Assembly: GCA_028343855.1 (NCBI GenBank)
Contig: JAOLZN010000006.1
Span: forward strand, 1 to 64,000
Direction of reading: 5' to 3'
Source: Candidatus Nitrosopumilus sp.
GTDB taxonomy: Archaea > Thermoproteota > Nitrososphaeria > Nitrososphaerales > Nitrosopumilaceae
Length of the DNA stretch: 64,000 nt
This document shows positions 45,031 to 63,911 of the stretch, piece after piece (within the stretch, counting starts at the first letter, position 1; the number at the start of each line of letters is the position of its first letter). Both the position numbers and the translations under genes were made by a program. The notes beneath the pieces are model-generated. The model was not told the DNA's origin and did not search any database. It worked only from the letters and a program-made list of their open reading frames with translations.

Positions 45031-46347
45031 TTGAAAAGTTCTGTATGGCATCCCAATACACAAATGAAAGAATGGACATCATTTGATAAAATATCAAAAG
45101 GTAAGGGTATTTGGTTAATTGATAGTAAAGGCAATAAAATAATTGATGCTGTAGGATCAATGTGGTGCAATGTTTGGGGACATTCAAACCCTCAATTAGT
45201 TAAAGCAATAACAAAACAAACCAAACAAATGCAGCATTCATCATTGTTTAACCTTACAAATGAACCAGTAGAAAAATTAGCAAAAAATTTGATAAAAATA
45301 TCACCTGGAATGAATAAGGTATTCTATTCAGATAACGGTTCTTCAGCAATGGAAATTGCAATTAAAATGGCATTGCAGTATTGGAATAACATAGGAGAAA
45401 CAAAAAAGACCAAGATTGCAACAGTAGAAAATGGTTATCATGGAGATACTTTTGGGGCAATGTCTGTAGGTTATGTTCCAGAATTTTTTGGAAAGTTTAA
45501 AAAACAATTATTTTCAACTATGCAATTTCCCGTTCCTAACAAATACAGAGTGCCAAAAGGATTTACTACATCAGATTATCAAAATGATTGTTTAGATAAA
45601 ATTGAAAAAGGATTCTCAAAAAATAACAACATTGCAGCTTTCATAATGGAAAGTGGAGCCCAAATGGCAGGAGGAGTAATAATTTATCCAAAAGATTTTC
45701 AAAGAAAAATTAGGGAGTTATGCAAAAAGTATGACATATTATTTGTATTAGATGAAATTGCAACAGGTTTTGGAAGATTAGGATCAATGGTACAATATCA
45801 AGAACAAAAAAGTAAACCAGATATTGTAGCATATGGGAAAATGTTGACAGGAGGGTACATGACAATGGCAGCTACATTGGCAAATAAAAAAATCTATGAT
45901 TCGTTTTCAGGTGAATTTTATGATTGGAAGCATCTATTTCATGGTCATACGTATACAGGAAATCCAATTGCAGCAGCTGTTGCAAATGAAAATATTCACA
46001 TGTATGAAAAATATAATTTAATTAAAAAAATTCAAAACACCTCAAAAATATTTACAAAATATTATCAAGAAATTTTAGATATTGATATTGTAGGAGATAT
46101 TAGGCATAAGGGAATGTTGATGGGTATTGAATTAGTATCAGATAAAGAAAAGAAGATTCCAATTCGTACAAAAAAATCCATTAACAAAGTATTTTTTGAA
46201 GAAGGTAAAAAACAGGGAATTTATCTTAGGACATTAGGCAATATTGTAATGCTTGTTCCGCCATTGGCGATAAAAGAAAAAGAATTGGAAATGCTCCTGT
46301 CAAGAACTATCAAAACAATTCAGGCAGCAAAATCAAAGATAATTTGA
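45031..46347 (+). CDS. bioA: adenosylmethionine-8-amino-7-oxononanoate aminotransferase
   Basis: SVWHPNTQMKEWTSF, GSMWCNVWGHSNPQL, DEIATGFGRLGSM. Confidence 0.95.
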   Translation: MKSSVWHPNTQMKEWTSFDKISKGKGIWLIDSKGNKIIDAVGSMWCNVWGHSNPQLVKAITKQTKQMQHSSLFNLTNEPVEKLAKNLIKISPGMNKVFYSDNGSSAMEIAIKMALQYWNNIGETKKTKIATVENGYHGDTFGAMSVGYVPEFFGKFKKQLFSTMQFPVPNKYRVPKGFTTSDYQNDCLDKIEKGFSKNNNIAAFIMESGAQMAGGVIIYPKDFQRKIRELCKKYDILFVLDEIATGFGRLGSMVQYQEQKSKPDIVAYGKMLTGGYMTMAATLANKKIYDSFSGEFYDWKHLFHGHTYTGNPIAAAVANENIHMYEKYNLIKKIQNTSKIFTKYYQEILDIDIVGDIRHKGMLMGIELVSDKEKKIPIRTKKSINKVFFEEGKKQGIYLRTLGNIVMLVPPLAIKEKELEMLLSRTIKTIQAAKSKII

Positions 46348-46349
46348 CT

Positions 46350-46377
46350 GTTAACCCCTAAAAATACAGCGGTTAAC
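46350..46377. promoter_or_regulatory. interrupted dyad GTTAACC-N14-GGTTAAC upstream of bioB
   Basis: gttaacc (46350-46356), 14-nt spacer, ggttaac (46371-46377); ends 13 nt before TATA-like ttataaat (46391-46398). Confidence 0.7.
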
Positions 46378-46418
46378 AATTACAATATTTTTATAAATGG
46401 AATAGAAAATGTCTGAAT

Positions 46419-47396: not shown

Positions 47397-48510
47397 ACTA
47401 AATTTTATTGATTTAGAGTTAGATAAAATTAAAGATAATAACTTACACAGAAAATTACAATATGGAAAAGCTCAAGGAGCCCACATTACAATCAAAAATA
47501 AAAAATTAATTAATTTATGCTCAAATGATTACTTGGGAATTCCAATTACAAAAATTCAAACAAATCAACTTCAATCCAGCTCTAGGCTAGTTTCAGGAAA
47601 TGATGAATCCTACAAAAAATTAGAAACAATTCTGGCAAAACACAAATCTCAGCAAAATAGTTTGATTTATCCAACAGGATATATGGCAAATTTAGGATCA
47701 ATATCAGCAGTAGCAAAAAAAGGAGATTTGGTACTTAGTGATGAACTGAATCATGCAAGTATAATAGAATCATGTAAGTTGTCAGGGGCCAAAATAGTAA
47801 TTTACAAACACAATAACATGAAGGATTTATTTCAAAAAATAAAAAAGCATGGAAAAAATAAATTCATAATTACAGAAGGAGTGTTCAGTATGGATGGAGA
47901 TTTTTCAGCATTAAAAGAAATTACAGAGATTTCCCAGAAAAGTAATGCAATTACTATAGTAGATGATGCACATGGGGATTTTGTAGTAGGCAAAGACGGT
48001 AAAGGAACTCCAGAGTATTTCAAAGTAGCAAAAAAAATTGACTTGTATATCAGCAGTTTAAGTAAAGGACTAGGATCATTTGGAGGATATGTTGCATCGC
48101 AAAATAATGTTATTGACGCATGTATAAATAAATCAAAATCATTCATCTACACTTCGGCATTACCATCATTTTTAGTGGAGCATTCAATTAAACGAATCCA
48201 ATCAAAAAGAGACATTCAAAAGAAAAAATTAGAAAACAATATAGAAAAATTATCAAAGGGATTACAATCAATAGGTTATGAAATTAATTCTAAAACACAA
48301 ATTATACCGATAATTATTGGAAATGAAAAAACAGCAATGGAGTTTGGAAAATTCCTGTTTAACAACGGGGTTTTTGCACAACCAATCAGATATCCAACAG
48401 TTCCAAAGAATCAAGCTAGGTTAAGAATATCTGTAACTGCCTGGTTAACAAACTCAGATATTGAGAAATCCTTAAAAATATTTGAAAAAGGATATAAAAA
48501 ATTCTTTTAA
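47371..48510 (+). CDS. bioF: 8-amino-7-oxononanoate synthase
   Basis: LCSNDYLGIPIT, FSMDGDFSAL, DDAHGDFVVGKDGKG, SLSKGLGSFGGYV; start probably slightly downstream (TTG codons near bioB stop). Confidence 0.94.
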   Translation: MKKLVLKHKLNFIDLELDKIKDNNLHRKLQYGKAQGAHITIKNKKLINLCSNDYLGIPITKIQTNQLQSSSRLVSGNDESYKKLETILAKHKSQQNSLIYPTGYMANLGSISAVAKKGDLVLSDELNHASIIESCKLSGAKIVIYKHNNMKDLFQKIKKHGKNKFIITEGVFSMDGDFSALKEITEISQKSNAITIVDDAHGDFVVGKDGKGTPEYFKVAKKIDLYISSLSKGLGSFGGYVASQNNVIDACINKSKSFIYTSALPSFLVEHSIKRIQSKRDIQKKKLENNIEKLSKGLQSIGYEINSKTQIIPIIIGNEKTAMEFGKFLFNNGVFAQPIRYPTVPKNQARLRISVTAWLTNSDIEKSLKIFEKGYKKFF

Positions 48511-48633
48511 TTAGCGAGAAGCATCCATGCCACCAAAGTCCAAACCTAATGGATTTGCTGGAGAACCTATTACTACTGCAAAAGTTATGACAATCGCTAA
48601 AGTAATACCTACTACCACATATCGTGTATTCAT
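48511..48633 (-). CDS. 40 aa single-TM microprotein
   Basis: MNTRYVVVGITLAIVITFAVVIGSPANPLGLDFGGMDASR. Confidence 0.55.
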   Translation of the reverse strand: MNTRYVVVGITLAIVITFAVVIGSPANPLGLDFGGMDASR

Positions 48634-48728
48634 ATCTAATCTAACAAATGCCTAGATAAAAACGGATTGTATCAAAAACATAGAGAAATGGCAACAAGGC
48701 TTTAAAATAAAAATAATAAATTCATCAT

Positions 48729-49463
48729 ATGACAGAACCTACAATAATAATAGCATTTTTTGCAGGATTAATTTCATTTATTGCACCATGTATTTTACCA
48801 ATGATTCCAGCATTTCTGGCATATATTTCAGGAACAACATTAAAAGAAATAAATGTCGATCAAACATCTTCTGCAAGTAAAATAAATAAAATCAATATTG
48901 TAGCAAATACAATATTTTTTGTTCTAGGTTTCTCTATTGTATTTTCGACATTAGGTGTTTTAATTAATAGTGTATTGTCTGAAAGAGTTTATCAATTTAC
49001 AGATAGTCTAAACATAATTGCAGGAATCATCATCATATTATTTGGAATATTTTTACTATTATCAACAAAAATTAATTCTTTAAACAAAGAAAAAAAAATT
49101 CATATCAAGAATTTTAAATCAAGTTATCCAATGTCGTTTGTATTTGGTTTAGCATTTGCAATTGCATGGACACCATGTGTTGGACCAATTTTAGGAACTA
49201 TTTTGACATTAGCTGCAACAACACCATCAATATCATTTAGTTTGTTATTATCATATTCTTTAGGGTTAGGAATTCCATTTATCTTGATGGGGTTATTTTT
49301 TTCAAAGTCAACAAAAATTATTTCATCAATGACAAAACATTTGAAATATTACAATATATTATTAGGCGGACTCATTATCGTATTGGGCATACTAGTATTT
49401 ACAAATCAACTTGCATATATTGCAAATTTTCCACTTCTTAATGAGTTTGTGATGTTAGGATGA
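48729..49463 (+). CDS. CcdA-like cytochrome c biogenesis/thiol-disulfide transmembrane protein
   Basis: FFAGLISFIAPCILPMIPAFLAYISG, FAIAWTPCVGPILGTIL. Confidence 0.93.
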   Translation: MTEPTIIIAFFAGLISFIAPCILPMIPAFLAYISGTTLKEINVDQTSSASKINKINIVANTIFFVLGFSIVFSTLGVLINSVLSERVYQFTDSLNIIAGIIIILFGIFLLLSTKINSLNKEKKIHIKNFKSSYPMSFVFGLAFAIAWTPCVGPILGTILTLAATTPSISFSLLLSYSLGLGIPFILMGLFFSKSTKIISSMTKHLKYYNILLGGLIIVLGILVFTNQLAYIANFPLLNEFVMLG

Positions 49464-50533
49464 ATGCAGAATTAAAAACGGGAGTTGTATTTGGTGGTAT
49501 AATCATAACAAGTGTGATATTTTTAGCCATAATTTTCATTGGATTAGATGAATTCACCTCTTTAAATCCAAATTCAGGAACAAATATGGCTCCAAATTTA
49601 GTCGGAATTGCACATTATCTGAATACATCTCCAGAAGAATTAACAAAAAGGATAGAAGATAAAGTAGTCTTATACGATATATGGACATACAGTTGTGTTA
49701 ATTGTATCAGAACATTACCATTCATTACATCATGGGATGAAAAATATTCAGAACAAGGATTATTGATAATAGGAATACATTCACCAGAATTTGAATTTGA
49801 AAAAAACCCACAAAATGTTAAAGCAGCAATTGAAAAGTATGGAATATCATATCCTGTTGTTATGGATAATGATATGAAAACGTGGAAAGCATTTGAAAAT
49901 AATTACTGGCCAAGAAAGTACATTGCCGATCATGAAGGAAATATAAGATATGATCACATTGGAGAAGGGTCATACCAAGAAACAGAGAAAATTATTCAAC
50001 AATTACTTAATGAAAGATCAATGGCAATGGGACTTGAAAACATATCTGAAAACAAGTTAGTTTCAATAGAAGAATTTGAACATACGTTGTTTAGAACTCC
50101 AGAATTATATTTTGGTTATAAATTTGCACAAAACAGAAATCAATTAGGAAGTGAAGAAGGATTTCAGCCAGAGAAAATTGTAAAATACAGTGAACCAAGT
50201 ATAGTGGAATTAAACAAGTTTTATCCAATTGGGAATTGGAAAAATAATGATGACAGCATGGAGTTAACAGAAGCAACAGGAGTTATCAAAGTATTATTTG
50301 ATGCAAAAGAAGTAAACATTGTTACTGAAAACTATGCACAATTGGAAATACTTCTTGATGGAATACCATTAACTGAAAAATATGCTGGGTCGGATATTAA
50401 ATCCTCGAATAAAATTGAAGTATCTACTCCTGGAATGTACAATATCATAAGCAGTGAAACAAGTATTACTCGTACAATGGAAATAAAGATTGAAGGTAAA
50501 GGGTTCCAAGCATTTACTTTTACATTTGGATAG
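49460..50533 (+). CDS. thioredoxin-like (TlpA/ResA-type) protein with C-terminal extension
   Basis: YDIWTYSCVNCIRTLPFITSWDEKYSEQGLLIIGIHSPEFEFE; 4-bp overlap with ccdA. Confidence 0.9.
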   Translation: MNAELKTGVVFGGIIITSVIFLAIIFIGLDEFTSLNPNSGTNMAPNLVGIAHYLNTSPEELTKRIEDKVVLYDIWTYSCVNCIRTLPFITSWDEKYSEQGLLIIGIHSPEFEFEKNPQNVKAAIEKYGISYPVVMDNDMKTWKAFENNYWPRKYIADHEGNIRYDHIGEGSYQETEKIIQQLLNERSMAMGLENISENKLVSIEEFEHTLFRTPELYFGYKFAQNRNQLGSEEGFQPEKIVKYSEPSIVELNKFYPIGNWKNNDDSMELTEATGVIKVLFDAKEVNIVTENYAQLEILLDGIPLTEKYAGSDIKSSNKIEVSTPGMYNIISSETSITRTMEIKIEGKGFQAFTFTFG

Positions 50534-50542
50534 TTTGTAACT

Positions 50543-51277
50543 GTGAATAGTGTAACTGAAGGTACACTAACAAGAGTTACAAATCTGTTTAAAAGAAAAA
50601 AATTAAGAGAATTTATCGAAATTAAAATGATAAGCAATTCTTGGAACAAAGTAGAGGGAGAAAGTATATCTCAAAAGGTCATAGGCAAAGTAAAGCCAGA
50701 TGAACCACTAAAGAATAGAATAGATTTTGCACAAAAAAAATTACAGGTACAAATTTCTAAATTATCAGGAATTAATGAAAAATTACAAACAAAACATGAT
50801 AAAATATTTGAAAAAATAGTGAATGCACAAAGAAATAACAAACCAGCCTACGCACAAGCATATGCTGGAGAATTAACTCAAGTTAGAAAAATGAAAAATA
50901 TGGTTAGTGGAGCCAAATTATCCATGGAACAAGTTAAACTCAGATTAGATACAGTCTCAGAACTTGGAGACGTAGTTGTAACATTAAGTCCATGTATGTC
51001 AATCATCAAAGGATTGAGTCCATCTCTAAGTGGGATTATGCCAGAAGCTAATGCATCAATGCAAGACTTGTCACAAATACTTGGTGATGTAATGTCTGGT
51101 TCATCAGTAGGAATGGATGATAACTTTACTTCAACTCCTGAAACTAATTCAGATACACTCGCAATTTTAGAAGAAGCACATAATGTAATTGCAGGACAAA
51201 CAAAATCATCAATTCCAGAAGTTCCAACAGAATTAAGACAACAAGTAACTGAAAGAAAATCAGATATTTTTATTTAG
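50543..51277 (+). CDS. CdvB/ESCRT-III (Snf7-fold) family protein
   Basis: 244 aa; KPDEPLKNRIDFAQKKLQVQISKLSGINEKLQTKHDKIFEKIVNAQ; basic N-terminus, acidic C-terminus. Confidence 0.8.
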   Translation: MNSVTEGTLTRVTNLFKRKKLREFIEIKMISNSWNKVEGESISQKVIGKVKPDEPLKNRIDFAQKKLQVQISKLSGINEKLQTKHDKIFEKIVNAQRNNKPAYAQAYAGELTQVRKMKNMVSGAKLSMEQVKLRLDTVSELGDVVVTLSPCMSIIKGLSPSLSGIMPEANASMQDLSQILGDVMSGSSVGMDDNFTSTPETNSDTLAILEEAHNVIAGQTKSSIPEVPTELRQQVTERKSDIFI

Positions 51278-51611
51278 ATTTCTTTTTACTTTTTTGAATG
51301 AGAATTTTTTTAATTCTAGATATAGTTGGGTAGCTGTATCCTCGTCTACGATAATTAGAGATCATCATTTTCCAATTTTTTAATCTCCATTGAGCTTGTT
51401 CAGTAGTTACTGAATGTACTTCTTTTTGGACAATACTTTTTCTTCCAACCTTTAGAGTTCCAGCATCTTTAGCATGCCATCTACTTTTTGCAAATTTAAG
51501 ACCTGTAAGAATTTCATTTACAGGCATTTCCTTAAAATATTCTTTTAATTTCTTTAATTCAAGATCGGTTGGTTTTTTTGAAATCGGGAGTTCTACACTA
51601 AACTTTACCAT
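51270..51611 (-). CDS. conserved basic hypothetical protein
   Basis: 113 aa; 3' end overlaps CdvB-like gene by 8 bp. Confidence 0.65.
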   Translation of the reverse strand: MVKFSVELPISKKPTDLELKKLKEYFKEMPVNEILTGLKFAKSRWHAKDAGTLKVGRKSIVQKEVHSVTTEQAQWRLKNWKMMISNYRRRGYSYPTISRIKKILIQKSKKKSK

Positions 51612-51702
51612 GTGTTTTCTAAAATATCATAGTTTAAGAATTCTATTGATAAGAAACGTCATAGTTTAGTTTAGTCACAAAAATGACATGGAGTATGGAA
51701 GT

Positions 51703-51849
51703 CTAAAGATCATGCTTTTCTTTGATATATTTTTGAAATAGATCCTCTTTGATACAGGTAGAACATACTAACCAACTGTCAGTAGTATCACCAGATATGT
51801 ATTCAACCAATAACTTTGGTTCATTCTCAAAACACTTACCAACTTTCAT
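51703..51849 (-). CDS. 48 aa CxxC microprotein
   Basis: MKVGKCFENEPKLLVEYISGDTTDSWLVCSTCIKEDLFQKYIKEKHDL. Confidence 0.5.
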   Translation of the reverse strand: MKVGKCFENEPKLLVEYISGDTTDSWLVCSTCIKEDLFQKYIKEKHDL

Positions 51850-51927
51850 TGATCCTTATGGTTTCTCAATAATATAGTGATGATCCAATAACCCATCTAT
51901 CTTTAAGCAAATTATCATAGGAATCCT

Positions 51928-52059
51928 ATGTTTGTTCCATGCACTTTGTGTAAGAAGATAATGCCCTTTGAAGAAAGAAGGATAAGAAACCAACATGATT
52001 ATCACAGAAAATGTATTTGGCACGTTGCACACTTGGTACAATTAGAAAATTTCTTTTGA
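51928..52059 (+). CDS. 43 aa CxxC/HxxxC microprotein
   Basis: MFVPCTLCKKIMPFEERRIRNQHDYHRKCIWHVAHLVQLENFF. Confidence 0.6.
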   Translation: MFVPCTLCKKIMPFEERRIRNQHDYHRKCIWHVAHLVQLENFF

Positions 52060-52060
52060 A

Positions 52061-52159
52061 ATGATATGCAAGAAATGTCAAGTTAATTGCGATAAGATAC
52101 CTGATGAAGATGTATGTTATTGGGTATGTCCTAACTGTAAGTTTCATTACTCTATCTAA
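52061..52159 (+). CDS. 32 aa double-CxxC microprotein
   Basis: MICKKCQVNCDKIPDEDVCYWVCPNCKFHYSI. Confidence 0.55.
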   Translation: MICKKCQVNCDKIPDEDVCYWVCPNCKFHYSI

Positions 52160-52271
52160 GATTACGGGACACTTTGTTTAGATTGATAATTATTTGAGAT
52201 AATGACTATCATTATTCAAGTAAATTCGATAGCAATACGTCAGTATATACCAGCGAGAATCATTGGTTGGT

Positions 52272-52385
52272 ATGTTCAAAAAAATTATTTCAAAACTAAG
52301 TTTTGGTTCTTGTAAAACTAAAACTACCAAAGACATAGACGCATGTAAAGAATTTGTAACAAAACATGAAGGTAAAAGTGAATAA
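52272..52385 (+). CDS. 37 aa microprotein
   Basis: MFKKIISKLSFGSCKTKTTKDIDACKEFVTKHEGKSE. Confidence 0.4.
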   Translation: MFKKIISKLSFGSCKTKTTKDIDACKEFVTKHEGKSE

Positions 52386-52386
52386 A

Positions 52387-52494
52387 GTGAATTACAAATG
52401 TAGTAACTGTAATTTCAAATGGAGTGGTTATTCAGATACTTTTCAGAAAGTAATTGCTCATGAAAGAACACACGTAAAAAGAGAGTTAGCATAA
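52387..52494 (+). CDS. 35 aa C2H2 zinc-finger-like microprotein (GTG start)
   Basis: VNYKCSNCNFKWSGYSDTFQKVIAHERTHVKRELA. Confidence 0.5.
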   Translation: MNYKCSNCNFKWSGYSDTFQKVIAHERTHVKRELA

Positions 52495-52592
52495 TGGTCG
52501 TATGCACGAAATGTTCAGATACATACCATCAACAATGTATGGGTAAAGCTGGAATGTTTGACTGTACTTGTAAAATCTGTAAAAAATCCTAG
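52494..52592 (+). CDS. 32 aa Cys-rich microprotein
   Basis: MVVCTKCSDTYHQQCMGKAGMFDCTCKICKKS; PHD/RING-like Cys/His spacing; TAATG overlap with the previous ORF. Confidence 0.5.
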   Translation: MVVCTKCSDTYHQQCMGKAGMFDCTCKICKKS

Positions 52593-52609
52593 AATCATTT
52601 TCTATTTTT

Positions 52610-52855
52610 TCAATACCTGTAAGGTTCCACTTTTTGATTTCTGAATCTTGGTTTACCTTGTTTCTTTTTTGGAAAATTTATAATCTGTCTGTCTGTGATA
52701 ACGTATTTGTCTAATGCACAAGATATACACCAAAAACCAGTCTTAACTTTCTTGGAACGTGTGTATGTAATCTTAACATCTTGAGATAAAGGTCTGTAAC
52801 AAAAATCACATTCAACATGGTTATAGTAGAAATTAATAAGATCACGTTTGATCAC
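52610..52855 (-). CDS. zinc-finger-like hypothetical protein
   Basis: 81 aa; CDFCYRPL...FWCISCALDKYV. Confidence 0.6.
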   Translation of the reverse strand: MIKRDLINFYYNHVECDFCYRPLSQDVKITYTRSKKVKTGFWCISCALDKYVITDRQIINFPKKKQGKPRFRNQKVEPYRY

Positions 52856-53019
52856 AGAAATAATCTAATCCTGAATTTAAAACCCGTGAGGTCTTCTCAC
52901 AGCTAATTCATTCTAGTAGCTTTTCTTGATACAAAATAAGAATTCTATTGATAAAATATTTCATAATTAGAATTATTCATAAAAAATAGTCATTATATGT
53001 TTAAATTTAATTTCATTAG

Positions 53020-53217
53020 TTGCTATCTATGAAAATCAAAATGTGTGATCATATTGATGTGTCAGGTATAAGAATAGAAGCATCACAATCTGTATTCACA
53101 ATTTGTAATGTGAACGAGGATCAGTTTGTCACATATTCATGTAAAAAATGCTATAATGAAATAAAAGAATTGGAACATAAAATTATTTCAAAAGAGGAAT
53201 TTGAAAAATATCTATAA
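53020..53217 (+). CDS. small Cys/His hypothetical protein
   Basis: 65 aa; MCDHIDVSG...TYSCKKCYNEIKELEH. Confidence 0.55.
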   Translation: MLSMKIKMCDHIDVSGIRIEASQSVFTICNVNEDQFVTYSCKKCYNEIKELEHKIISKEEFEKYL

Positions 53218-53243
53218 GAAAATAGTTAGATTTAGGAATAAAA

Positions 53244-53357
53244 TTAACGATTATCAATTAGAGTTTCCAAAGATAATCCAAAATATTCACTGTTTGAACT
53301 ATTCATAGATTTCATCAATTCTATTTTTAATGATCTCAATTCTTTTTGACTTTTCAT
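53244..53357 (-). CDS. 37 aa hypothetical microprotein
   Basis: MKSQKELRSLKIELMKSMNSSNSEYFGLSLETLIDNR. Confidence 0.35.
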   Translation of the reverse strand: MKSQKELRSLKIELMKSMNSSNSEYFGLSLETLIDNR

Positions 53358-53490
53358 AATTAGATAATAAGAGTATTCAAGATAATATTGTCCTTTTAAT
53401 CCAAGTAAACCAATAGCTTGTGGTTATTCAACAATAATTACAAATAATTAAAAAATCCTTTTATGAGAAAAAAAAATTAAGGCAAGAGAG

Positions 53491-56157
53491 ATGAAGTTCT
53501 GCCCTAATTGTGAAACAAAACTTTCAAAGAATTTGAAAGATTTAGCAGGACCAGGAATTTGTCCAAAATGCAATCCAGAAATGATAACCATTAGAAAACC
53601 AACTTACGGTGTAAATTATTCAGGAAGAACAAAACAATGCTCAAAAGGTTGTGGATCAGAGATTTATTGGGATGAAGAATTTAAATCAGATAGCGGAAAA
53701 TTCATTCCACTCGATGCAAGAACAGATGAACCTCATAGTTGTAATGGTCCCGAAAATTCACAACCTTATTTCCCGGATGAAATAAAAAATATTAATAAAA
53801 AAATAACACCTAAAAAAATCACAACAGAGTTAAAAATTGCATTACCAGAAAATATTTTATTTGATGTAAATAAAATACCAAAATTAGAAATTAATAATGA
53901 TATAATCATACATGACTTAGTAGAAGGGCATAGAAATCAAACACTTGCAATAATACATTATGAAAAATTAGTTTCATTAGAACCAGAAAAAATTCCTATA
54001 GAAAAGCTAAAGGATATTTTATCAATAAAGATCATAGATGGATTAAAAAAATATGGATTTTCAGGAGTACTACCATTTCAAAATGAATCAATTAGGTCGA
54101 TACTAAAAGGAAACAATTCCATTATTTCAGCACCAACAGGTTCAGGAAAAACTGAAGCGTTCATCATACCAATTTTACAAAAAATATTAGAAAATCCAAT
54201 TAAAGGAGTTTTTGTATTACTTGTGTATCCACTAAATGCACTAATTGATGATCAAGTGTCAAAAATTTCAGATCTAATTGAAAAATGTCAATTAGAAGAC
54301 ATAATTTCCACATATTCTATTCATGGAGGACAAAGTTCTCAATACAAGGATAAAATAATTACAGAATCACATAAAAAATCAATAATTCTTGCAACAAATT
54401 TTGATTTCATTAATTATCATTTAATTTTACAAGATAAAAAATGGAATCAATTATTCAAAAATGCAAAAATAATTGTCATGGATGAAGCACATTCATACAC
54501 AAGCTTTCACGGGTCAAATGTTTACCAGGTATTAAAAAGAATGAAAAATTATATGAAAAACTTTCAGATAATAGGATCATCAGCCACATTAGATAACTCA
54601 AAAGAATTTTTTTCAAATATGTACGATTTACCTGAAAATTCCTTTTCACATATCAAAAGTGAATTTAAAAGAAAACAAAACATGCATCAATTTTTTATTA
54701 TGCCCAGAAAATTTGGACAAAGAACTACAATGGAAATGATTACATCAATTTGTCATAAAAAGAATTCAAAACAATTAGTTTTTAGTAATACTCACAATGA
54801 TGCAGAATTTTTAGCATCAAATGTAGAAACAATGAATGAAAAAATGAGAATACAAATTCATCGTGGAGGATTAGAACAAAAAGATAGAAAGATGTACGAA
54901 TCACAAATGAAAGAAGGGGAATTAGACATTCTATCTTGCACACCCACATTAGAATTAGGGATAGATATTGGAAATGTGGATGTAGTAATTTCTGCATTCA
55001 AAAATGAGTATGATTCATTTATTCAAAGAATCGGTCGTGCAGGAAGAAAAGGTCAGAAATCATATGCAATTTGTGTGTTTGATCCAGAAGATGCTGCATG
55101 TCATTATTTTGCACGAAATGTTCCAGCATATCTTAATCAAAAACACTATGTTGAAATCAATAAAAATAATTCCATTATTTCAGAAAAACATGAGGTGTCA
55201 ATTGGAATGGAAAAACATGCTGCAATTGAATCAGATAAATCAAAATTTTTTGAATTTGCAAACAGTATTAATCTCAGAGGAGCATCAGGAGAGATTACAA
55301 TTTTTCACGGTTCAAAAAAAATTGGAACAAGAGATACGCCTGCAGGGTATTATCAACTTCATCAAAATGGAATATATCATTTTAATAAACAAAATTATCA
55401 AGTTGAATCAATAGTTAAAACTGCAAATGGGGCAAATGCATTTTTAAAAAAATCTAATGAAATGCAGAAAAGAACAATCCCAGTTGTAAAAACATCACTT
55501 AAGCAAATATCAGAAAAGAAATCAATTAAAAAAGAAATTAATTTTAAAATGAAAAAAATCTCATTACGTTATGGATTAATTGATATGAATAGAACCATAA
55601 CAGGATATCTAAAAGGGAATTATAACGACACAGCAGATAAATTTCAAACATTTGATGGTAATTCAATAGCAGATTGGAATAATTTTAGTTGGAATTCAAA
55701 GCATTATTGCACAAGTATTTCAATCCCATCTGAATTCATGTCAAAAATTAAAGTAGATTTAAAAAATTCAATTATCTCAGATTCAAAAATTCATACTATA
55801 ACTCATGTTTTAGTTAATGCAAGTAAAATTTTAACAAAATCAGAATCAAATGATATTGATGCATATTATGAGAGTGGAATAATTCATTTATTTGATAACA
55901 CATCAGATGGCTACAACGGTTGCAGTAAAATAATTTATGAAAATTTTGAAAATATTTTAGAAACCTGCTTTGATTTAGTTAATCAATGTGATTGTAAGGG
56001 AGATCATAGACAAAATGAATCAACTTCATCATCAGAAAACTGGGGTGGATGTCCAAAATGTACATTTACAACAAATTATTGTCAAACAAAAAATAAAAAA
56101 TTATCAAAAAAAGAAGCATTAGATTTCTTCACTATTTTTCATAGAGAAATAAAATGA
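53491..56157 (+). CDS. SF2 DEAD/DEAH-box helicase with N-terminal zinc ribbon(s) and C-terminal Cys-rich DUF1998/MZB-like region
   Basis: 888 aa; APTGSGKTEAFIIPIL, VMDEAHSYTSFHGS, GSSATLDN, QRIGRAGRKGQKSYAI; C-term NQCDCKGDHRQNESTSSSENWGGCPKCTFTTNYC. Confidence 0.9.
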   Translation: MKFCPNCETKLSKNLKDLAGPGICPKCNPEMITIRKPTYGVNYSGRTKQCSKGCGSEIYWDEEFKSDSGKFIPLDARTDEPHSCNGPENSQPYFPDEIKNINKKITPKKITTELKIALPENILFDVNKIPKLEINNDIIIHDLVEGHRNQTLAIIHYEKLVSLEPEKIPIEKLKDILSIKIIDGLKKYGFSGVLPFQNESIRSILKGNNSIISAPTGSGKTEAFIIPILQKILENPIKGVFVLLVYPLNALIDDQVSKISDLIEKCQLEDIISTYSIHGGQSSQYKDKIITESHKKSIILATNFDFINYHLILQDKKWNQLFKNAKIIVMDEAHSYTSFHGSNVYQVLKRMKNYMKNFQIIGSSATLDNSKEFFSNMYDLPENSFSHIKSEFKRKQNMHQFFIMPRKFGQRTTMEMITSICHKKNSKQLVFSNTHNDAEFLASNVETMNEKMRIQIHRGGLEQKDRKMYESQMKEGELDILSCTPTLELGIDIGNVDVVISAFKNEYDSFIQRIGRAGRKGQKSYAICVFDPEDAACHYFARNVPAYLNQKHYVEINKNNSIISEKHEVSIGMEKHAAIESDKSKFFEFANSINLRGASGEITIFHGSKKIGTRDTPAGYYQLHQNGIYHFNKQNYQVESIVKTANGANAFLKKSNEMQKRTIPVVKTSLKQISEKKSIKKEINFKMKKISLRYGLIDMNRTITGYLKGNYNDTADKFQTFDGNSIADWNNFSWNSKHYCTSISIPSEFMSKIKVDLKNSIISDSKIHTITHVLVNASKILTKSESNDIDAYYESGIIHLFDNTSDGYNGCSKIIYENFENILETCFDLVNQCDCKGDHRQNESTSSSENWGGCPKCTFTTNYCQTKNKKLSKKEALDFFTIFHREIK

Positions 56158-56768
56158 CCCCATTAGAGAATGCAGAATTATTTGCAAAGTCAAAGCATGC
56201 AGGAGAATTAAATGAAAGTGGAGTATCATATTCAAATCATTTAGAAAATGTTGTCAGTAGGCTCAAAAGCTTAGGAGTAGTTGATGAAGAAGTGCTTTGT
56301 GCAGGATGGTTAAAAGATATTTTAGAACATACAGATACAAGTTTTGACGAGCTTTTTGAAAAGTGCGGTAGAAGAATTTCAACGTTGATTCTATCATTAA
56401 CTAAAACAAAATTGGTTATAGATACCAGCGATGAATCAACGTTATCATTAACAAAAAAAAGAACAGTGTCAAAAAAACAGAGGCAAAAAGAATATGGAGT
56501 TAAAATTAGTGAAGGGGAATTAGATGCAAAATTAATTAAATTGTGTGAGATTTCTGCAAATTTAGGAGATTTAAAAAATCAAATAATATCTAAAACAAAA
56601 AAAAGACGTACTCTAAAAGAATTAAGATTTTATCTAACAATAATAGAAAAAGATCTAATTACAAATACAAAATATCCAAAAGCAACTATTCTGTTAGATA
56701 CTATTAATCAAAATCTAAAAATTCAAACTCAAAATATGAATAAAATTAAAAAAAATAAATCAATATAG
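56154..56768 (+). CDS. RelA/SpoT-HD-like protein with degenerate HD motif
   Basis: 204 aa; SKHAGELNESGVSYSNHLENVVSRLKSLGVVDEEVLCAGWLKDILEHTDTSFDELFEKCGRRISTLILSLTKTK; 4-bp overlap with helicase. Confidence 0.7.
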   Translation: MTPLENAELFAKSKHAGELNESGVSYSNHLENVVSRLKSLGVVDEEVLCAGWLKDILEHTDTSFDELFEKCGRRISTLILSLTKTKLVIDTSDESTLSLTKKRTVSKKQRQKEYGVKISEGELDAKLIKLCEISANLGDLKNQIISKTKKRRTLKELRFYLTIIEKDLITNTKYPKATILLDTINQNLKIQTQNMNKIKKNKSI

Positions 56769-56844
56769 GCACAAAATTATTTTGAAATAGTAATTAAAAG
56801 ATCATAAAAACTAGAATTAAATACTATAGAATTATCAAACAATT

Positions 56845-56925
56845 ATGAATTTGAAGAAAAGTCTTGCAAAGTTTTGTATTATGAAGAAAGTACGAGATAA
56901 GGCAAACGAAACTGATGATGAATAA
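56845..56925 (+). CDS. 26 aa microprotein
   Basis: MNLKKSLAKFCIMKKVRDKANETDDE. Confidence 0.3.
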   Translation: MNLKKSLAKFCIMKKVRDKANETDDE

Positions 56926-56943
56926 ATAATCTTTATTTTATAA

Positions 56944-57063
56944 TTAACATCCTAACGGAATGTTTGAATTTTTACATAAAGTATTGTATATTCCGAATCC
57001 AAAAATTATTGATGCAAATACTACCAATGGAATCAAAAGGAAAACATTTGTTTTACGTCCCAT
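56944..57063 (-). CDS. 39 aa single-TM microprotein
   Basis: MGRKTNVFLLIPLVVFASIIFGFGIYNTLCKNSNIPLGC. Confidence 0.5.
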   Translation of the reverse strand: MGRKTNVFLLIPLVVFASIIFGFGIYNTLCKNSNIPLGC

Positions 57064-57103
57064 GACTATTGTAAACAAACACGACTAAAAAGTTATGACA
57101 TTC

Positions 57104-57520
57104 TTAATCAACTGTGATAATAAAAAGTCCTTTTGTTTCTGGATTTTGTAACTTAGAAACCATTTCTCTAGGCACTAAATCAGAGGCCTTATCACAATTC
57201 ACAGATATTGTTCTAGGACAAATGAAGTTGCTTTTTCTTAATACAATATCTTCATCATGAGTCAAAGTTAAATCAGAATGACCCTTTCCTTCTAAGATAA
57301 ATTCATCATTGTCTACTTTAATTATAAAACTAACATTAGTATCAGGATTTTTTAATTTATTTTTTAATTCTTCTGGTAAATCAGCGCAAGATGAATTAGC
57401 ACTGACACCGATGATACAGTCACCTCGAGGCGTCAGATGAGATTCCTTTGTAATCTCTATTGTTTTTTTGTGATTTGATCTAATATTTTTATGACCAAAA
57501 AATTCAATTTCATATCTCAC
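57104..57520 (-). CDS. DUF371 family protein
   Basis: YEIEFFGHKNIRSNHKKTIEITKESHLTPRGDCIIGVSANSSCADLPEELK. Confidence 0.8.
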   Translation of the reverse strand: MRYEIEFFGHKNIRSNHKKTIEITKESHLTPRGDCIIGVSANSSCADLPEELKNKLKNPDTNVSFIIKVDNDEFILEGKGHSDLTLTHDEDIVLRKSNFICPRTISVNCDKASDLVPREMVSKLQNPETKGLFIITVD

Positions 57521-57571
57521 GCTTCAGGTATAGGCTAGACTTAAATTAATCCTTCACGGCATTTTGATCAA

Positions 57572-58309
57572 ATGCTTCCTGCACAACAAGGTTATGATCG
57601 AGCAATTACTGTGTTTTCACCAGATGGTAGATTGTATCAAGTAGAATATGCCATTGAAACAGTAAGAAGAGGAACAATAGCAGTTGGAGTAAAATGCAAA
57701 GATGGAATCATCATTGCAGTAGAAGAAAAACCTAGAAAATTACAAATTTCTGAAACAGCACAAAAGATTTTTCAAATTGATGATCATGTTGGTGTTGCAG
57801 CAGCAGGGTATATTCCAGATGCAAGAAGTCAAGTAGACAATGCAAGATTCTTTTCTCAAAGTAACAAAATGATTTATGATGAATCAGTTGAAGTAGAAAC
57901 CATTGCAAAACATTTAGCTGATCAATGTCAGCAATATACTCAATATGCAGGAGTTAGACCATACGGAGTAGCTTTAATTTTAGGAGGAGTTGTAAATAAA
58001 ACACCTCAACTTTATCTAACAGATCCTAGTGGAACATACATTTCATATGATGCAATAGCAATTGGTTCTGGTTCAGATACTGTCACAGACTTTTTAGAAA
58101 AAACATACAAAGACGAACTAACATTAGACGAAGCATCAGTATTAGCAGCTGCAGGAATTTATCTATCTAGTGAAGATAAAGAAGGAACAGGTCATATCAG
58201 AATGGCACATATTAAAACAGAAACTGGTTTGTACGAATTAGTTTCAGATGAACAAATTGTAAGTTATGCAAATACTGCAAAAGAAAAATATCCACACGAT
58301 AAGAACTAA
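57572..58309 (+). CDS. psmA: proteasome alpha subunit
   Basis: GYDRAITVFSPDGRLYQVEYAIETVRRGTIAVGVKCKDG. Confidence 0.97.
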   Translation: MLPAQQGYDRAITVFSPDGRLYQVEYAIETVRRGTIAVGVKCKDGIIIAVEEKPRKLQISETAQKIFQIDDHVGVAAAGYIPDARSQVDNARFFSQSNKMIYDESVEVETIAKHLADQCQQYTQYAGVRPYGVALILGGVVNKTPQLYLTDPSGTYISYDAIAIGSGSDTVTDFLEKTYKDELTLDEASVLAAAGIYLSSEDKEGTGHIRMAHIKTETGLYELVSDEQIVSYANTAKEKYPHDKN

Positions 58310-58341
58310 TTAATTATAACTACTTGTGAGATTAAATTACA

Positions 58342-59145
58342 TTGAAAATATCTGTTGCAATTCCCACATCTTCATTACAAGATGAATCACTAAAAATAGA
58401 TAAAACTAGAAAAATTTCAGTTTTAGCTCGAGCATGTGCAATTTTTAAAATCGATACAATCTATGTTTACCAAGAAGGGAATAATGGTTCTGAAGGAAAT
58501 TTGATATCAATGATTTTAAGATATTTAGAAACACCACAATTTCTAAGAAGAAGACTATTTCAAAAAGTGAATGATCTTAAATTTGCAGGAGTTTTACATC
58601 CATTAAAAATTCCAAGTCATAACACACCAACAAATGCAAAAAAAATAGTTGCAGGCGACATAAGAGAAGGAATCATTGTAACAGTCAAAGGTAAAAAATT
58701 TGTGGATGTAGGAATAAATCAATTAATTCAATTCTATGGTAAAACACCAACAGGTAAAAGAATAACAATTCAATTCAAAGAAGGTTATCCAAGATTATCT
58801 GTAAAAGAAATCAACAATTCAGAATCTAAAGAATATTGGGGATATGACGTAAAAGAAAGATCAAATTTATTTTCTTTATTATCAGAATGGAAAGGAAACA
58901 TAATCATCACATCTAGAAAAGGCAAAGTTGCAACTAAAGATCAACTTGAGAAATATGCAAAATCAGATGAGTCATTACTCGTGGTTTTTGGCTCTCCAGA
59001 GAAAGGAGTACATGAAATTATTGGCGGTAGAATGAACAAAGTACAAAATTCAAAATCATTGAATTTCTTTCCCAATCAAGCAACAGAAACAGTACGACTT
59101 GAGGAAGCATTACTGGGCACATTAGCAATATTGAATATGTCATAA
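58342..59145 (+). CDS. SPOUT-type putative RNA methyltransferase
   Basis: ISVAIPTSSLQDESLKIDKTRKISVLARACAIFKIDTIYVY...FLRRRLF. Confidence 0.85.
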   Translation: MKISVAIPTSSLQDESLKIDKTRKISVLARACAIFKIDTIYVYQEGNNGSEGNLISMILRYLETPQFLRRRLFQKVNDLKFAGVLHPLKIPSHNTPTNAKKIVAGDIREGIIVTVKGKKFVDVGINQLIQFYGKTPTGKRITIQFKEGYPRLSVKEINNSESKEYWGYDVKERSNLFSLLSEWKGNIIITSRKGKVATKDQLEKYAKSDESLLVVFGSPEKGVHEIIGGRMNKVQNSKSLNFFPNQATETVRLEEALLGTLAILNMS

Positions 59146-59146
59146 G

Positions 59147-59254
59147 ATGGCTGAAAAGAAAAATTTTTTGGTATTTGCAATAGGAATAGGAGTTATGGGA
59201 GTAGTAATTGGAGGAATAACAATATGGAACATGATTTCAGATATTCTAAAATGA
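59147..59254 (+). CDS. 35 aa single-TM microprotein
   Basis: MAEKKNFLVFAIGIGVMGVVIGGITIWNMISDILK. Confidence 0.6.
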   Translation: MAEKKNFLVFAIGIGVMGVVIGGITIWNMISDILK

Positions 59255-59272
59255 GAAATTGTATCTATGTTC

Positions 59273-59300
59273 GTTAACCAAAAAAATTTTTGTGGTTAAC
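59273..59300. promoter_or_regulatory. interrupted dyad GTTAACC-N14-GGTTAAC upstream of rpl3
   Basis: gttaacc (59273-59279), 14-nt spacer, ggttaac (59294-59300); ends 14 nt before TATA-like tttaata (59315-59321). Confidence 0.7.
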
Positions 59301-59347
59301 CATAACTAACAGGGTTTAATAGAGGGAATTCAAGAGTCGATTTAACA

Positions 59348-60340
59348 ATGGGAGCTCGAAAAAGACATCAACCACGTAGAGGAAGTCTTGCATACTATCC
59401 AAGAATTCGTGCAAAAAGCATGGAAGCAAGAATCAAAGCATGGCCAAAAGTTAATTCTGAAGAACCAAAAATTTTAGCTCATTGTGGTTTCAAAGCTGGT
59501 TGTGTACAAATTGTAAGTATTGATGATCGTGATAAAGTTCCAAATGCAGGAAAACAATTAGTTAGTTTAGGTACAGTATTAGTAACTCCACCAGTTTTAA
59601 TTTTAGGAATTAGAGGATATTCAAAAGATTACGATGGAAGACATTCTGAATTTGATGTATATGCAGAAGACATTCCAAAATATATTTCAAAAGAAATGAC
59701 ATTCAAAAATAAAGAAGGTGCATTAGATAATGCAGAAAAAAGATTAAAGAAAATTAAAGAAATCTATGCAATTGTTGCAGTGTCTCCAAGAGCTGCAGGA
59801 CTTGAGCAGAAGAAACCATATATTTTTGAAGCTGCAGTCAAAGGCGGAGATATTCAAAAACAATTTACTCATGTTAAAGAATTGTTAGGAAAAGAAATTA
59901 AAATTGATCAAATTTTTGAAACAGGTTCAACTGTGGATGTTGCAGCAATTACAAAAGGTAAAGGTTGGCAAGGAGTAATTTACAGAATGGGTGTTAAAAA
60001 GAAACAACATAAATCTAGAAAAACAGTTAGAGAAGTTGGTTCATTAGGTCCAATTTCACCACAAAGTGTAATGTGGACAGTACCAAGAGCAGGACAAACA
60101 GGTTTTCATCAAAGAACTGAATACGATAAAAGAATTATGGTTATGGGTAATGCAGATGATGAAAAATTAAAAATTAATCCAGAAGGAGGTTTCAAACATT
60201 TCGGTTTAGTAAAAGGTGATTTTATTATTTTGAAAGGTTCAGTTCCAGGAACATATAGAAGATTAATCAAATTAAGAGCACAAATAAGAAATGAACCAGC
60301 TAAAGTTAACAAACCAAATATTTTGGAGGTTGTAGTATAA
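59348..60340 (+). CDS. rpl3: 50S ribosomal protein L3
   Basis: GARKRHQPRRGSLAYYPRIRAKS. Confidence 0.97.
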   Translation: MGARKRHQPRRGSLAYYPRIRAKSMEARIKAWPKVNSEEPKILAHCGFKAGCVQIVSIDDRDKVPNAGKQLVSLGTVLVTPPVLILGIRGYSKDYDGRHSEFDVYAEDIPKYISKEMTFKNKEGALDNAEKRLKKIKEIYAIVAVSPRAAGLEQKKPYIFEAAVKGGDIQKQFTHVKELLGKEIKIDQIFETGSTVDVAAITKGKGWQGVIYRMGVKKKQHKSRKTVREVGSLGPISPQSVMWTVPRAGQTGFHQRTEYDKRIMVMGNADDEKLKINPEGGFKHFGLVKGDFIILKGSVPGTYRRLIKLRAQIRNEPAKVNKPNILEVVV

Positions 60341-61152
60341 TGAAAATAACAACATACACAACTACTGGAACTAAAGAAGGAGAAATAGAACTTCCATTAA
60401 TATTCTCAACTCCATTTAGAAGAGAGTTAATTCACAAAGTTTGGACAAATCTTACATCACATAAATTCCAACCACAAGGTAGACATCCAAGTGCAGGACA
60501 AGATGTAGTTGCAGATTCAAACGATCCACCAACAGGTCAAGGTGTATCTCGTGTTGCTAGAGCTCAAGGTGGCGGCGGTGGAAGACAAGGTCAAGGTGCA
60601 GAAGTTGCATCAACCAGAGGGGGAAGACAAGCACATCCACCAATAGTAGGTAAAGTAATTTACAAAAAATTAAACAAAAAAGAAAATAAACTTGCATTAT
60701 GTTCAGCCATTGCAGCTACTGCATCAAAAGATCTCATAGAAGCCAGAGGTCACAAAGTTGAAGGTATTGAAACATTCCCAATTGTAGTATCAAATGATAT
60801 TGAATCAATTTCTAAAGCAAGTGAAATTACAAAAGTATTGGATTCATTAAAACTAACACAAGATACAGAAAGATTGGAATCAAGAAAATCACGTTCAGGT
60901 CAATCAAGACTTAGAGGAAGAAGTAAAAAAGTAGGAAAGAGTGTACTATTTGTTACAAAAGATTCTACAGAAATTTCAAAAGCTATTGGAGCATTACCCG
61001 GAGTAGAAGTTAAAAATACAAAAGACTTGAGTGTCCTAGACTTAGCCCCAGGATCACATCCAATTAGACTAACAGTTTATTCAAAATCTGCAATTGAAGA
61101 AATTGCAAAGATTAAATCAACACATCTAGAATTAATGGTGAAAACACAATGA
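60340..61152 (+). CDS. rpl4: 50S ribosomal protein L4
   Basis: archaeal L4e, RVARAQGGGGGRQGQGAEVASTRGGRQAHPP. Confidence 0.96.
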   Translation: MKITTYTTTGTKEGEIELPLIFSTPFRRELIHKVWTNLTSHKFQPQGRHPSAGQDVVADSNDPPTGQGVSRVARAQGGGGGRQGQGAEVASTRGGRQAHPPIVGKVIYKKLNKKENKLALCSAIAATASKDLIEARGHKVEGIETFPIVVSNDIESISKASEITKVLDSLKLTQDTERLESRKSRSGQSRLRGRSKKVGKSVLFVTKDSTEISKAIGALPGVEVKNTKDLSVLDLAPGSHPIRLTVYSKSAIEEIAKIKSTHLELMVKTQ

Positions 61153-61415
61153 ATGTAGAACAAGCAATGAAAATAATTGTGAAACCATATATCACAGAAA
61201 AAACATTTGCCATGATTGAAAATGAAAATAAAATTTGTTTTATTGTAGAATTATCTGCAAAGAAACCAGAAATAGCAGAAGCAGTAAATACACTATACAA
61301 ACAAAAAGTACTCAAAGTTAACACTGCAAGAACAATTTATGGTAAAAAGGCATTTGTACAATTTGAAAGTACTGAAAAAGCCAGAGATCTCGCAACGCAG
61401 ATAGGAATGCTCTAA
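61149..61415 (+). CDS. rpl23: 50S ribosomal protein L23
   Basis: IIVKPYITEKTFAMIENENKICFIVE. Confidence 0.95.
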   Translation: MNVEQAMKIIVKPYITEKTFAMIENENKICFIVELSAKKPEIAEAVNTLYKQKVLKVNTARTIYGKKAFVQFESTEKARDLATQIGML

Positions 61416-61459
61416 TATGGACCATAAAACTCGAAGTACATTAACAATGGAGAAAAAAA

Positions 61460-61855
61460 ATGGTTAAAGAGTTTCAATATAGAGGACTAACAAAAGAGGA
61501 TCTAGACAACACATCATTAGAAAAATTATTCTTATTATTTAATTCCAGACAAAGAAGATCACTCACAAGAGGAATTACAGATGGAAAAAGAAAATTAATT
61601 GAAGAAATAAAATCTGCAAAAGCAGGAAAATCAAAAAATCCTATCAAAACTCACTTAAGAGATTTGATAATTCTACCATACATGGTTGGTGTTACAGTAA
61701 ATGTTTTCTCAGGAAAAGAATTTCGTCCAGTAAATATTACAACAGAAATGGTTGGTCGATATTTGGGAGAATATGTCATAACAAACAAGAAGGTTCAACA
61801 TGGAGCACCAGGAGTAGGTGCATCAAGATCCAGCCTTTACGTACCATTGAAGTGA
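61460..61855 (+). CDS. rps19: 30S ribosomal protein S19
   Basis: IKTHLRDLIILPYMVGVTVNVFSGKEFRPVNITTEMVGRYLGEY. Confidence 0.96.
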   Translation: MVKEFQYRGLTKEDLDNTSLEKLFLLFNSRQRRSLTRGITDGKRKLIEEIKSAKAGKSKNPIKTHLRDLIILPYMVGVTVNVFSGKEFRPVNITTEMVGRYLGEYVITNKKVQHGAPGVGASRSSLYVPLK

Positions 61856-62319
61856 TTATTATGGGTAGATTCGATTACGCTTTCCAAAATTATGATGCAA
61901 CTAGACATGTTAGATCATCAGTAAGAGAAAAAGACATGTCACATAAACATGCAAGAGAAGTTGCAGTTGCAATCAAAGGTTTGTCAATTGAAAAAGCAAG
62001 AGATTTCTTACTTGCAGTAATTAATAAAAAAAGAGCTGTTCCATTTAGAAGATATAAAAATCAAGTTGGACACAAAGCAGACCCAGGAGTAATGTCAGGT
62101 CGTTATCCACAAAAAACAGCAAAAGAATTCATCAAAGTATTAGATAACTTAGAATCAAACGCAGAATACAAGGGAATGGATTTAGATAGATTAAGAATTG
62201 TAAATGCAACAGTACACAAGGGAGTTGTCGTTAAAAGATTTATTCCAAGAGCAATGGGAAGAGCAACTCCAAAAAATAATGTATTAACACATGTAGAATT
62301 GGTGGCCCAGGAGATTTAG
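61852..62319 (+). CDS. rpl22: 50S ribosomal protein L22
   Basis: L22 signature region [15 protein letters not shown]. Confidence 0.95.
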
Positions 62320-62321
62320 AT

Positions 62322-63119
62322 ATGTCAGCAGTAAAAAATGTAATCAGAGATAACTACAACATGATGTTGTTAAAAGATTATTTGAGAAATGCAATTAAGG
62401 ATGCAGGATTCTCACATGCAGAAATATCAAAAACACCAACAGGTACTAGAGTAGCATTACATGTTACAAGACCAGGAATTGTAATAGGAAGAAAAGGTTC
62501 AGGTATTAGAGATCTTACAGAGAAACTTGCAACTGACTTTGGATTAAAGAATCCACAAATATCAGTTAATGAAATTGAAAAACCAGATTTATCACCAAGT
62601 GTTATGTGTAATAGAATGGCTTCCCACTTAGAAAGAGGTACAGCATTTAGAAGGGCAACCATGTGGACAATGAAACAAATCATGGAAAGTGGTGCAATGG
62701 GTGTTCAAATTACAATTTCAGGAAAACTCAGAGGTGACCGTTCAGCATTTGAGAAACATGTAGCAGGAATTTTGCCAAGAGCAGGACACCATGCAGAAGT
62801 AATAGTAGATGAAGATATTGCACACGTAAAAACTGCAATGGGTCTAATTGGAATCAGAATTAGAATTGCAATTAAAGAAAAACTAATCCCAGAATTTGAA
62901 TTAAAGAAAGAAAAAGAAGAAAAGAAAAAGAAACCAGAGAAAGAAGTCCCAGTTAAAAAAGTTGAAGAAATTAAAGTTGAAGGAGATGTAAAGGTAGAGG
63001 TGGTCAAAGTTGAAGGAGATGGAAATAAAGCTAAATCAGAGTCTGAACAAATTGCAATAGAAGCAGAAAAGATGAAAACGATTGAAACATTAGAAGAAGA
63101 TGAGGCAAGTATGAAATGA
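62322..63119 (+). CDS. rps3: 30S ribosomal protein S3 with charged C-terminal tail
   Basis: KH domain [21 protein letters not shown]; Lys/Glu/Val-rich tail. Confidence 0.96.
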
Positions 63120-63322
63120 CCAAAATTAGTATGAAAACAATAAGAAATCTAAATGAAAAGGATCTTAGAAGTAAAATGCTAGATAATAGAACAGATTTAG
63201 CAAAACTAAGAGTAGATTCCTCAAAAGGAACATTAAGAAAAGAAAGCGGAAAACTCAAACCCATTCGTAAAAACATTGCAAGAATGCTAACTAGACTAAA
63301 CGAAATGGAGAAAAAGAAATGA
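63116..63322 (+). CDS. rpl29: 50S ribosomal protein L29
   Basis: 68 aa in S10 cluster order. Confidence 0.93.
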
Positions 63323-63585
63323 TAACTGTAGATACAATTGCAAGACACGAATTCATAGGCCTAGATACAAAAATAATCAATTCAAATAATCTAGAAGTAG
63401 TAGGATTAAATGGAACAGTGATTAATGAAACAAAATCGATGTTTACAATAAATACACAAAAAGGTATGAAAATGATTCCAAAATCAACAAATGATTGGGG
63501 ATTTACCATTAATGGTAAGAATATGACAGTAAAAGGATCAACAATTGCAAAAAGACCATTTGAAAGAATAGGAGCAAAAGCATGA
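63319..63585 (+). CDS. rnp1: ribonuclease P protein component 1 (Rpp29)
   Basis: HEFIGLDTKIINSNNLEVVGLNGTVINETKSMF; conserved position between L29 and S17. Confidence 0.92.
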   Translation: MITVDTIARHEFIGLDTKIINSNNLEVVGLNGTVINETKSMFTINTQKGMKMIPKSTNDWGFTINGKNMTVKGSTIAKRPFERIGAKA

Positions 63586-63911
63586 CCAGAAATATAGGAA
63601 TCAAAGTAAATGCACCTAAAGATGAACCAGTAGCAGGAGATACAAAAAATCCATTTAATGGAACACTTTCAATTCGAGGTAAACTATTCGAGGGTAAGAT
63701 CATAAAATCAAAAGCAAAGAATACTGTCGTAATTCAAAAAGAGTCACCTGTTTACTTTAATAAATTCAAAAGATATGCAAGAGGTAAAAGTACAATTCAT
63801 GCACACGTACCATCAAACTTACAAGTGAAAGAAGGAGATGTAGTTGTCGCTGCAGAGTGCAGACCAATAGCAAAATCAGTTTCATATGTAGTAATTGAGG
63901 TAAAAGCATAA
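63582..63911 (+). CDS. rps17: 30S ribosomal protein S17
   Basis: PFNGTLSIRGKLFEGKIIKSKAKNTVVIQKE. Confidence 0.95.
   Translation: MTRNIGIKVNAPKDEPVAGDTKNPFNGTLSIRGKLFEGKIIKSKAKNTVVIQKESPVYFNKFKRYARGKSTIHAHVPSNLQVKEGDVVVAAECRPIAKSVSYVVIEVKA

Follow-up and report, generated by a model that had tools for sequence, protein, structure and literature searches.

A predicted BirA operator at the ribosomal L3 operon of Nitrosopumilus and two sister genera

The closest described system to the locus reported here is the bacterial BirA box, or bioO, with its regulon (PMC545781, PMC4016012). The BirA consensus reads TTGTAAACC-N14/15-GGTTTACAA (PMC545781). BirA dimerises on biotinyl-5'-AMP, which builds up once all acceptor protein is biotinylated, and repression by BirA hence depends on both biotin and unbiotinylated carrier protein (PMC4016012). 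Archaea also place bacterial-type regulators on a eukaryote-like promoter: TrmBL1 and Tgr, whose regulatory sign depends on position, bind palindromes near the BRE/TATA (PMC4158304). The group II biotin protein ligases, such as BirA of E. coli, B. subtilis and S. aureus, combine an N-terminal HTH_11 winged helix, a ligase core and a C-terminal domain. The BirA targets known to us serve biotin synthesis, transport and the like, and a ribosomal target is unusual.

The archaeal locus shares with the bacterial system the core palindrome GTWAACC-N14/15-GGTTWAC at bioB and a bifunctional BirA encoded in the genome. It differs in having a second target, the ribosomal L3 operon, in its archaeal BRE/TATA promoter, and in that one sister genus has a detectable box at the ribosomal target only. 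The ligase aligns over nearly its full length with the group II enzymes, from which it is set apart by its archaeal host and by the proposed control of ribosomal genes. Compared with TrmBL1 and Tgr, which share its promoter setting and have sugar genes as targets, the protein family, the half-sites and the spacing are different. The BirA box at biotin genes is known, and the predicted recruitment of a BirA operator to a ribosomal operon appears to be new. Our search for literature linking BirA to archaeal ribosomal genes, or for an earlier description of the rpl3 box, found none, which is weak evidence as it covered open-access literature only.

The window, a 64-kb stretch of a Candidatus Nitrosopumilus sp. 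genome, contains the dyad GTTAACC-N14-GGTTAAC twice. One copy (59273..59300, no strand assigned; gttaacc-aaaaaaatttttgt-ggttaac) precedes the gene for ribosomal protein L3, and the other (46350..46377, no strand assigned; gttaacc-cctaaaaatacagc-ggttaac) precedes bioB. Both half-sites are exact at both sites, as the original prediction had it. The "identical" spacer that it described is identical in length and not in sequence. The promoter geometry, said to match, does so in half-sites and spacer length; dyad and TATA-like element are separated by 14 nt at rpl3 and by 13 nt at bioB. The distances from dyad to ATG are 47 nt at rpl3 and 41 nt at bioB, each one less than the 48 and 42 nt first given.

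The rpl3 core promoter (59308..59321, plus strand), delimited from conserved columns, comprises a BRE-like stretch (59308-59314) and the TATA box tttaata (59315-59321). It is followed on the plus strand by rpl3 (59348..60340; PF00297, E 3.8e-69), the first gene of the operon, and by the genes for L4, L23, S19, L22 and S3 (60340..63119; Pfam matches), whose start and stop codons overlap or nearly adjoin. RNase P p29 and S17 (rps17) come after S3 (63319-63911; Pfam matches). The TATA box lies 26 nt before the ATG, which points to a probably leaderless rpl3 transcript that would not include the dyad. The bioB dyad is located between bioA and bioB-bioF, all on the plus strand. bioA (45031..46347; TIGR00508, 462 bits, above cut-off) ends 2 nt before the bioB operator. 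The bioB TATA box ttataaa (46391..46397, plus strand) begins 13 nt after the dyad, a gap found in nearly all congeners scored, and precedes bioB (46419-47396; TIGR00433 match) and bioF (47371-48510), for which TIGR00858 is the best family with a score below its curated cut-off.

Several other features of the neighbourhood were recorded. A 35-codon ORF (59147-59254, plus strand), probably a single-pass membrane peptide, lies between an RNA methyltransferase gene and rpl3; it has no Pfam match, and a similar ORF seems to be present at the same place in genus g2. Beside bioD is the gene for an HTH protein, P0001 (44140-44673, minus strand), with weak similarity to MsvR/ArsR. In most family genomes compared, the bio genes and the rpl3 operon lie within ~8-17 kb of each other (45031-59348 in the window; L252-L259), with Snf7/CdvB-like, proteasome and methyltransferase genes between them.

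To place the two sites in the genome, the dyad was searched for at increasing numbers of mismatches. The window holds no third N14 pair even at up to three mismatches, which extends the original by-eye observation. In the whole genome (1,204,134 bases, ~1.2 Mb), two dyads were found at up to one mismatch, those at bioB and rpl3, both exact. A first-order Markov model predicts 7.7e-5 exact copies for the window and 0.0015 for the whole genome; the dyad is far above chance. The N14 genome scan at up to two mismatches found no dyad at bioA, bioD or birA. It gave one 2-mismatch match elsewhere (C1:159274), within a CdvB-like coding sequence. This match was rejected as a third site on account of its coding location; 1-mismatch variants of it turn up in several congeners, as would be expected from conservation of the coding sequence. 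Many unrelated intragenic copies, or a lack of conservation in sister species, had been named as observations that would speak against the original prediction. No unrelated intragenic exact copies were found, and the dyad proved to be conserved at rpl3 in sister species, as described below.

A dyad with at most one mismatch occurs somewhere in the genome in 83 of 95 genomes of the genus. At the rpl3 promoter itself, it is present at this quality in 75 of the 80 congeners with a readable promoter (61 exact and 14 with one mismatch), in a sample of mutually related genomes, many of them metagenome-assembled. The remaining five are G028 with two mismatches (GTAAACC-N14-AGTTAAC), G047, G051 and G064 with degenerate sites, and G079 with none. 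Among the 75 sites, 12 of 14 half-site positions are invariant and there are 70 distinct spacers. The outermost palindromic T (-1) and A (+30) are conserved at 97% and 99%, respectively. The rpl3 dyad also occurs in two sister genera, g3 and g4, the latter Nitrosarchaeum-type. The gap between dyad and TATA box is 14 nt in 78 of 79 rpl3 promoters of the genus and these two sister genera in which a TATA pattern was found. In a second, named set that partly overlaps the first and is not independent of it, the dyad was found at 74 of 80 rpl3 loci, including all records titled Nitrosarchaeum; it was absent from Nitrosopelagicus and three marine group I records of that set. The predicted recruitment to rpl3 thus extends over Nitrosopumilus, g3 and g4. 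The identity of rpl3 declines from g1 through g3-g4 to the others, and the simplest reading of this order is a single gain of the dyad before the split of g1, g3 and g4.

Where sister genera lack the upstream dyad, a single half-site, GGTTAAC, immediately follows the rpl3 TATA box (GGTTTAC in g5 and GGTTAGC in L366/L368). It was seen at L366, L368, L370, L372 and L373 and in the rpl3 promoters of g2, g5, g6, g9 and g10 (L069-L078), and is perhaps a remnant of, or a precursor to, an operator straddling the TATA box. A complete straddling box at rpl3 in these genera was considered and rejected. Only g2 has a left half, a poor one (GTTAYCY-N15-GGTTAAC), and g5, g6, g9, g10, Nitrosopelagicus and one marine group I genome (AG-464-N14) have the right half alone. 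Separately, four genomes, those of L202/L203/L204 (G047, G051, G064) and G029:C44, have an insertion in L3 in common, at which the alignment splits at residue 273, with ~26-44 extra codons.

The factor left nameless in the original prediction is predicted here to be BirA. The dyad core matches the BirA box core GTAAACC-N14/15-GGTTTAC, with W allowed at the fourth position, and does so exactly at both sites. Across the order, bioB promoters carry GTWAACC-N14/15-GGTTWAC, so the bioB box is kept order-wide with N14 or N15. In f2, f3 and part of f7, the bioB box reads GTAAACC...GTTTAC and straddles the TATA box. Of the outer TT...AA of the nine-base half-sites, the outermost T and A are largely conserved at rpl3 (see above), where the neighbouring base is G or C in place of the T of the bacterial consensus; at bioB of this genus the outer half-site bases differ. 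Behind the bioB site lies a biotin gene, and behind the rpl3 site lies the ribosomal operon, not a gene of biotin synthesis or transport. The rpl3 site is therefore a predicted BirA operator outside the classical biotin regulon.

The genome encodes a single biotin protein ligase (C2:12854-13858, outside the window). Its HTH_11 (E 4.6e-14), BPL_LplA_LipB (E 6e-23) and BPL_C (E 1.8e-7) domains all score above the Pfam cut-offs. The protein matches S. aureus BirA (6apw, 5.2e-38) and E. coli BirA (1bia, 9.5e-28) through the HTH and over nearly the full length. Its TIGR00122 (birA_repr_reg) score of 57.1 bits (E 1.7e-15) falls short of the 70-bit cut-off, which just 2 of 14 control genomes pass. 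By its sequence, the ligase is a bifunctional, group II biotin protein ligase with a winged helix. In one other genome (G223:C1:1008515-1009506), birA reads as two overlapping pieces (residues 1-196 and 187-331), reflecting a frameshift or an assembly error.

We then compared the occurrence of the box with that of the winged helix in 68 genomes, taking HTH status from the start of the ligase alignment; HTH-negative ligases were checked by eye and a subset by Pfam. The bioB box was found in 54 of 60 genomes with the ligase winged helix and in none of the 8 in which it is missing or degenerate (Fisher 4e-7, a value that ignores shared ancestry). In G161 (L216), the winged helix region is kept, the recognition helix reads AREQLAKEI instead of SRxAVWK (HTH_11 E 0.011), and the bioB promoter is without a box. 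Six genomes have the HTH and no bioB box, five of them in g4 and the sixth G015. All six keep the rpl3 box, which shows that it is maintained independently of the bioB box. This leaves g4 with the rpl3 operon as its one detectable target. In G015 (L257), bioB runs opposite to bioA and bioF, and its box is gone.

The predicted regulon has two targets. The exact sites of 22 family genomes are all located at bioB or rpl3, which disfavours the broader growth regulator that the original prediction had offered as an alternative. Its other suggestion, one factor connecting biotin supply with ribosome synthesis, is favoured by the shared BirA-type dyad, the BirA-type ligase and the fixed, conserved positions. 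In a scan of 25 genomes, the exact degenerate pattern was found only at bioB and rpl3, except for one isolated match in the distant relative G145; a reversed control pattern gave 0 or 1 matches.

Collectively, motif identity, conservation, the two-target regulon and the co-occurrence of bioB box and winged helix support a reading to which we give a probability of roughly 0.8: that the dyad is a BirA operator, through which BirA loaded with biotinyl-5'-AMP would control the L3-L4-L23-S19-L22-S3 operon. From these comparisons, we infer on good grounds that BirA would bind at rpl3; its dependence on the ligand is predicted. In these autotrophs, the acetyl/propionyl-CoA carboxylase that serves in the CO2-fixation cycle is a main acceptor of biotin. 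At bioB and rpl3 alike, a BirA dimer carrying biotinyl-5'-AMP would occupy the two half-sites. Biotinyl-AMP-BirA would accumulate only after all biotin carboxyl carrier protein is biotinylated, so that the operator would report the demand for new acetyl/propionyl-CoA carboxylase. When growth slows and carrier protein synthesis stops, BirA would dimerise, and biotin synthesis and the L3 operon would be lowered together. New apo-carrier protein would use up biotinyl-AMP and release both promoters.

Repression is our preferred sign, by a modest margin. The box straddling the bioB TATA in f2, f3 and f7 is in a repressor position. As it would make no sense for the end product to activate bioB, the 13-14 nt geometry presumably represses at bioB, and we extend this to rpl3. 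Against repression counts the finding that archaeal sites upstream of the BRE/TATA are more often activating (PMC4158304). Activation is a possible, less probable reading, in which biotinyl-AMP-BirA beside the BRE would contact TFB/TBP and, once biotinylation of the carboxylase is complete, raise transcription of the ribosomal genes. The position of the rpl3 box immediately upstream of the BRE/TATA, with its rigid 14-nt gap, would suit such a contact, and sites so placed activate in the TrmBL1, Tgr and Ptr2 systems (PMC4158304). The distance from box to TATA at bioB is looser (2 to 51 nt, or straddling), as if under weaker constraint. However, the geometry at bioB of these genomes is almost identical (13 nt), and activation by the end product would there amount to runaway feedback; BirA is known to us solely as a repressor.

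It is unlikely that BirA acts at bioB alone and that rpl3 is bound by another winged-helix factor recognising the same half-sites. Such a factor would accommodate the g4 genomes and G015 with their rpl3 box and no bioB box, the intact BirA HTH of congeners G047 and G051 beside degenerate rpl3 sites, and a spacer that is strictly N14 at rpl3 and N14 or N15 at bioB. However, the half-sites are identical within the same genomes, G079 lacks both the ligase HTH and the rpl3 box, and no other HTH in the window's genome matches the BirA repressor model at E better than 0.01. The nearby P0001 was rejected as the dyad's regulator, with a clear orthologue in just 1 of 34 genomes searched. Very improbable is an RNA element, either a hairpin or a terminator of the upstream genes. 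The site is an inverted repeat with a T-rich loop behind a small ORF, but its position ahead of the rpl3 TATA box would place it outside the rpl3 transcript, its half-sites are invariant rather than covarying, and the same sequence is at the same place relative to the TATA at bioB. Chance or shared ancestry without function has a negligible probability. The genomes are all related and the promoter is short, but the contrast between the varied spacers and the invariant half-sites refutes this explanation in practice; the low genomic expectation also speaks against it, and only 1 of 29,200 shuffled rpl3 promoters matched the real quality.

Ammonia-oxidising archaea are among the most abundant marine cells, and to our knowledge it is poorly understood how archaea match ribosome production to growth. 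We see about even odds for a wider role, in which BirA of Nitrosopumilus and Nitrosarchaeum would be a growth regulator that reads the charge of the carboxylase via biotinyl-5'-AMP and directly sets transcription of the L3 operon, its sole detectable target in the Nitrosarchaeum-type genomes where the bioB box was lost. The sequence comparisons suggest a coupling of ribosome production to the condition of a biotin-dependent, CO2-fixing enzyme. If true, this would connect the capacity for carbon fixation with ribosome synthesis by a direct molecular route.
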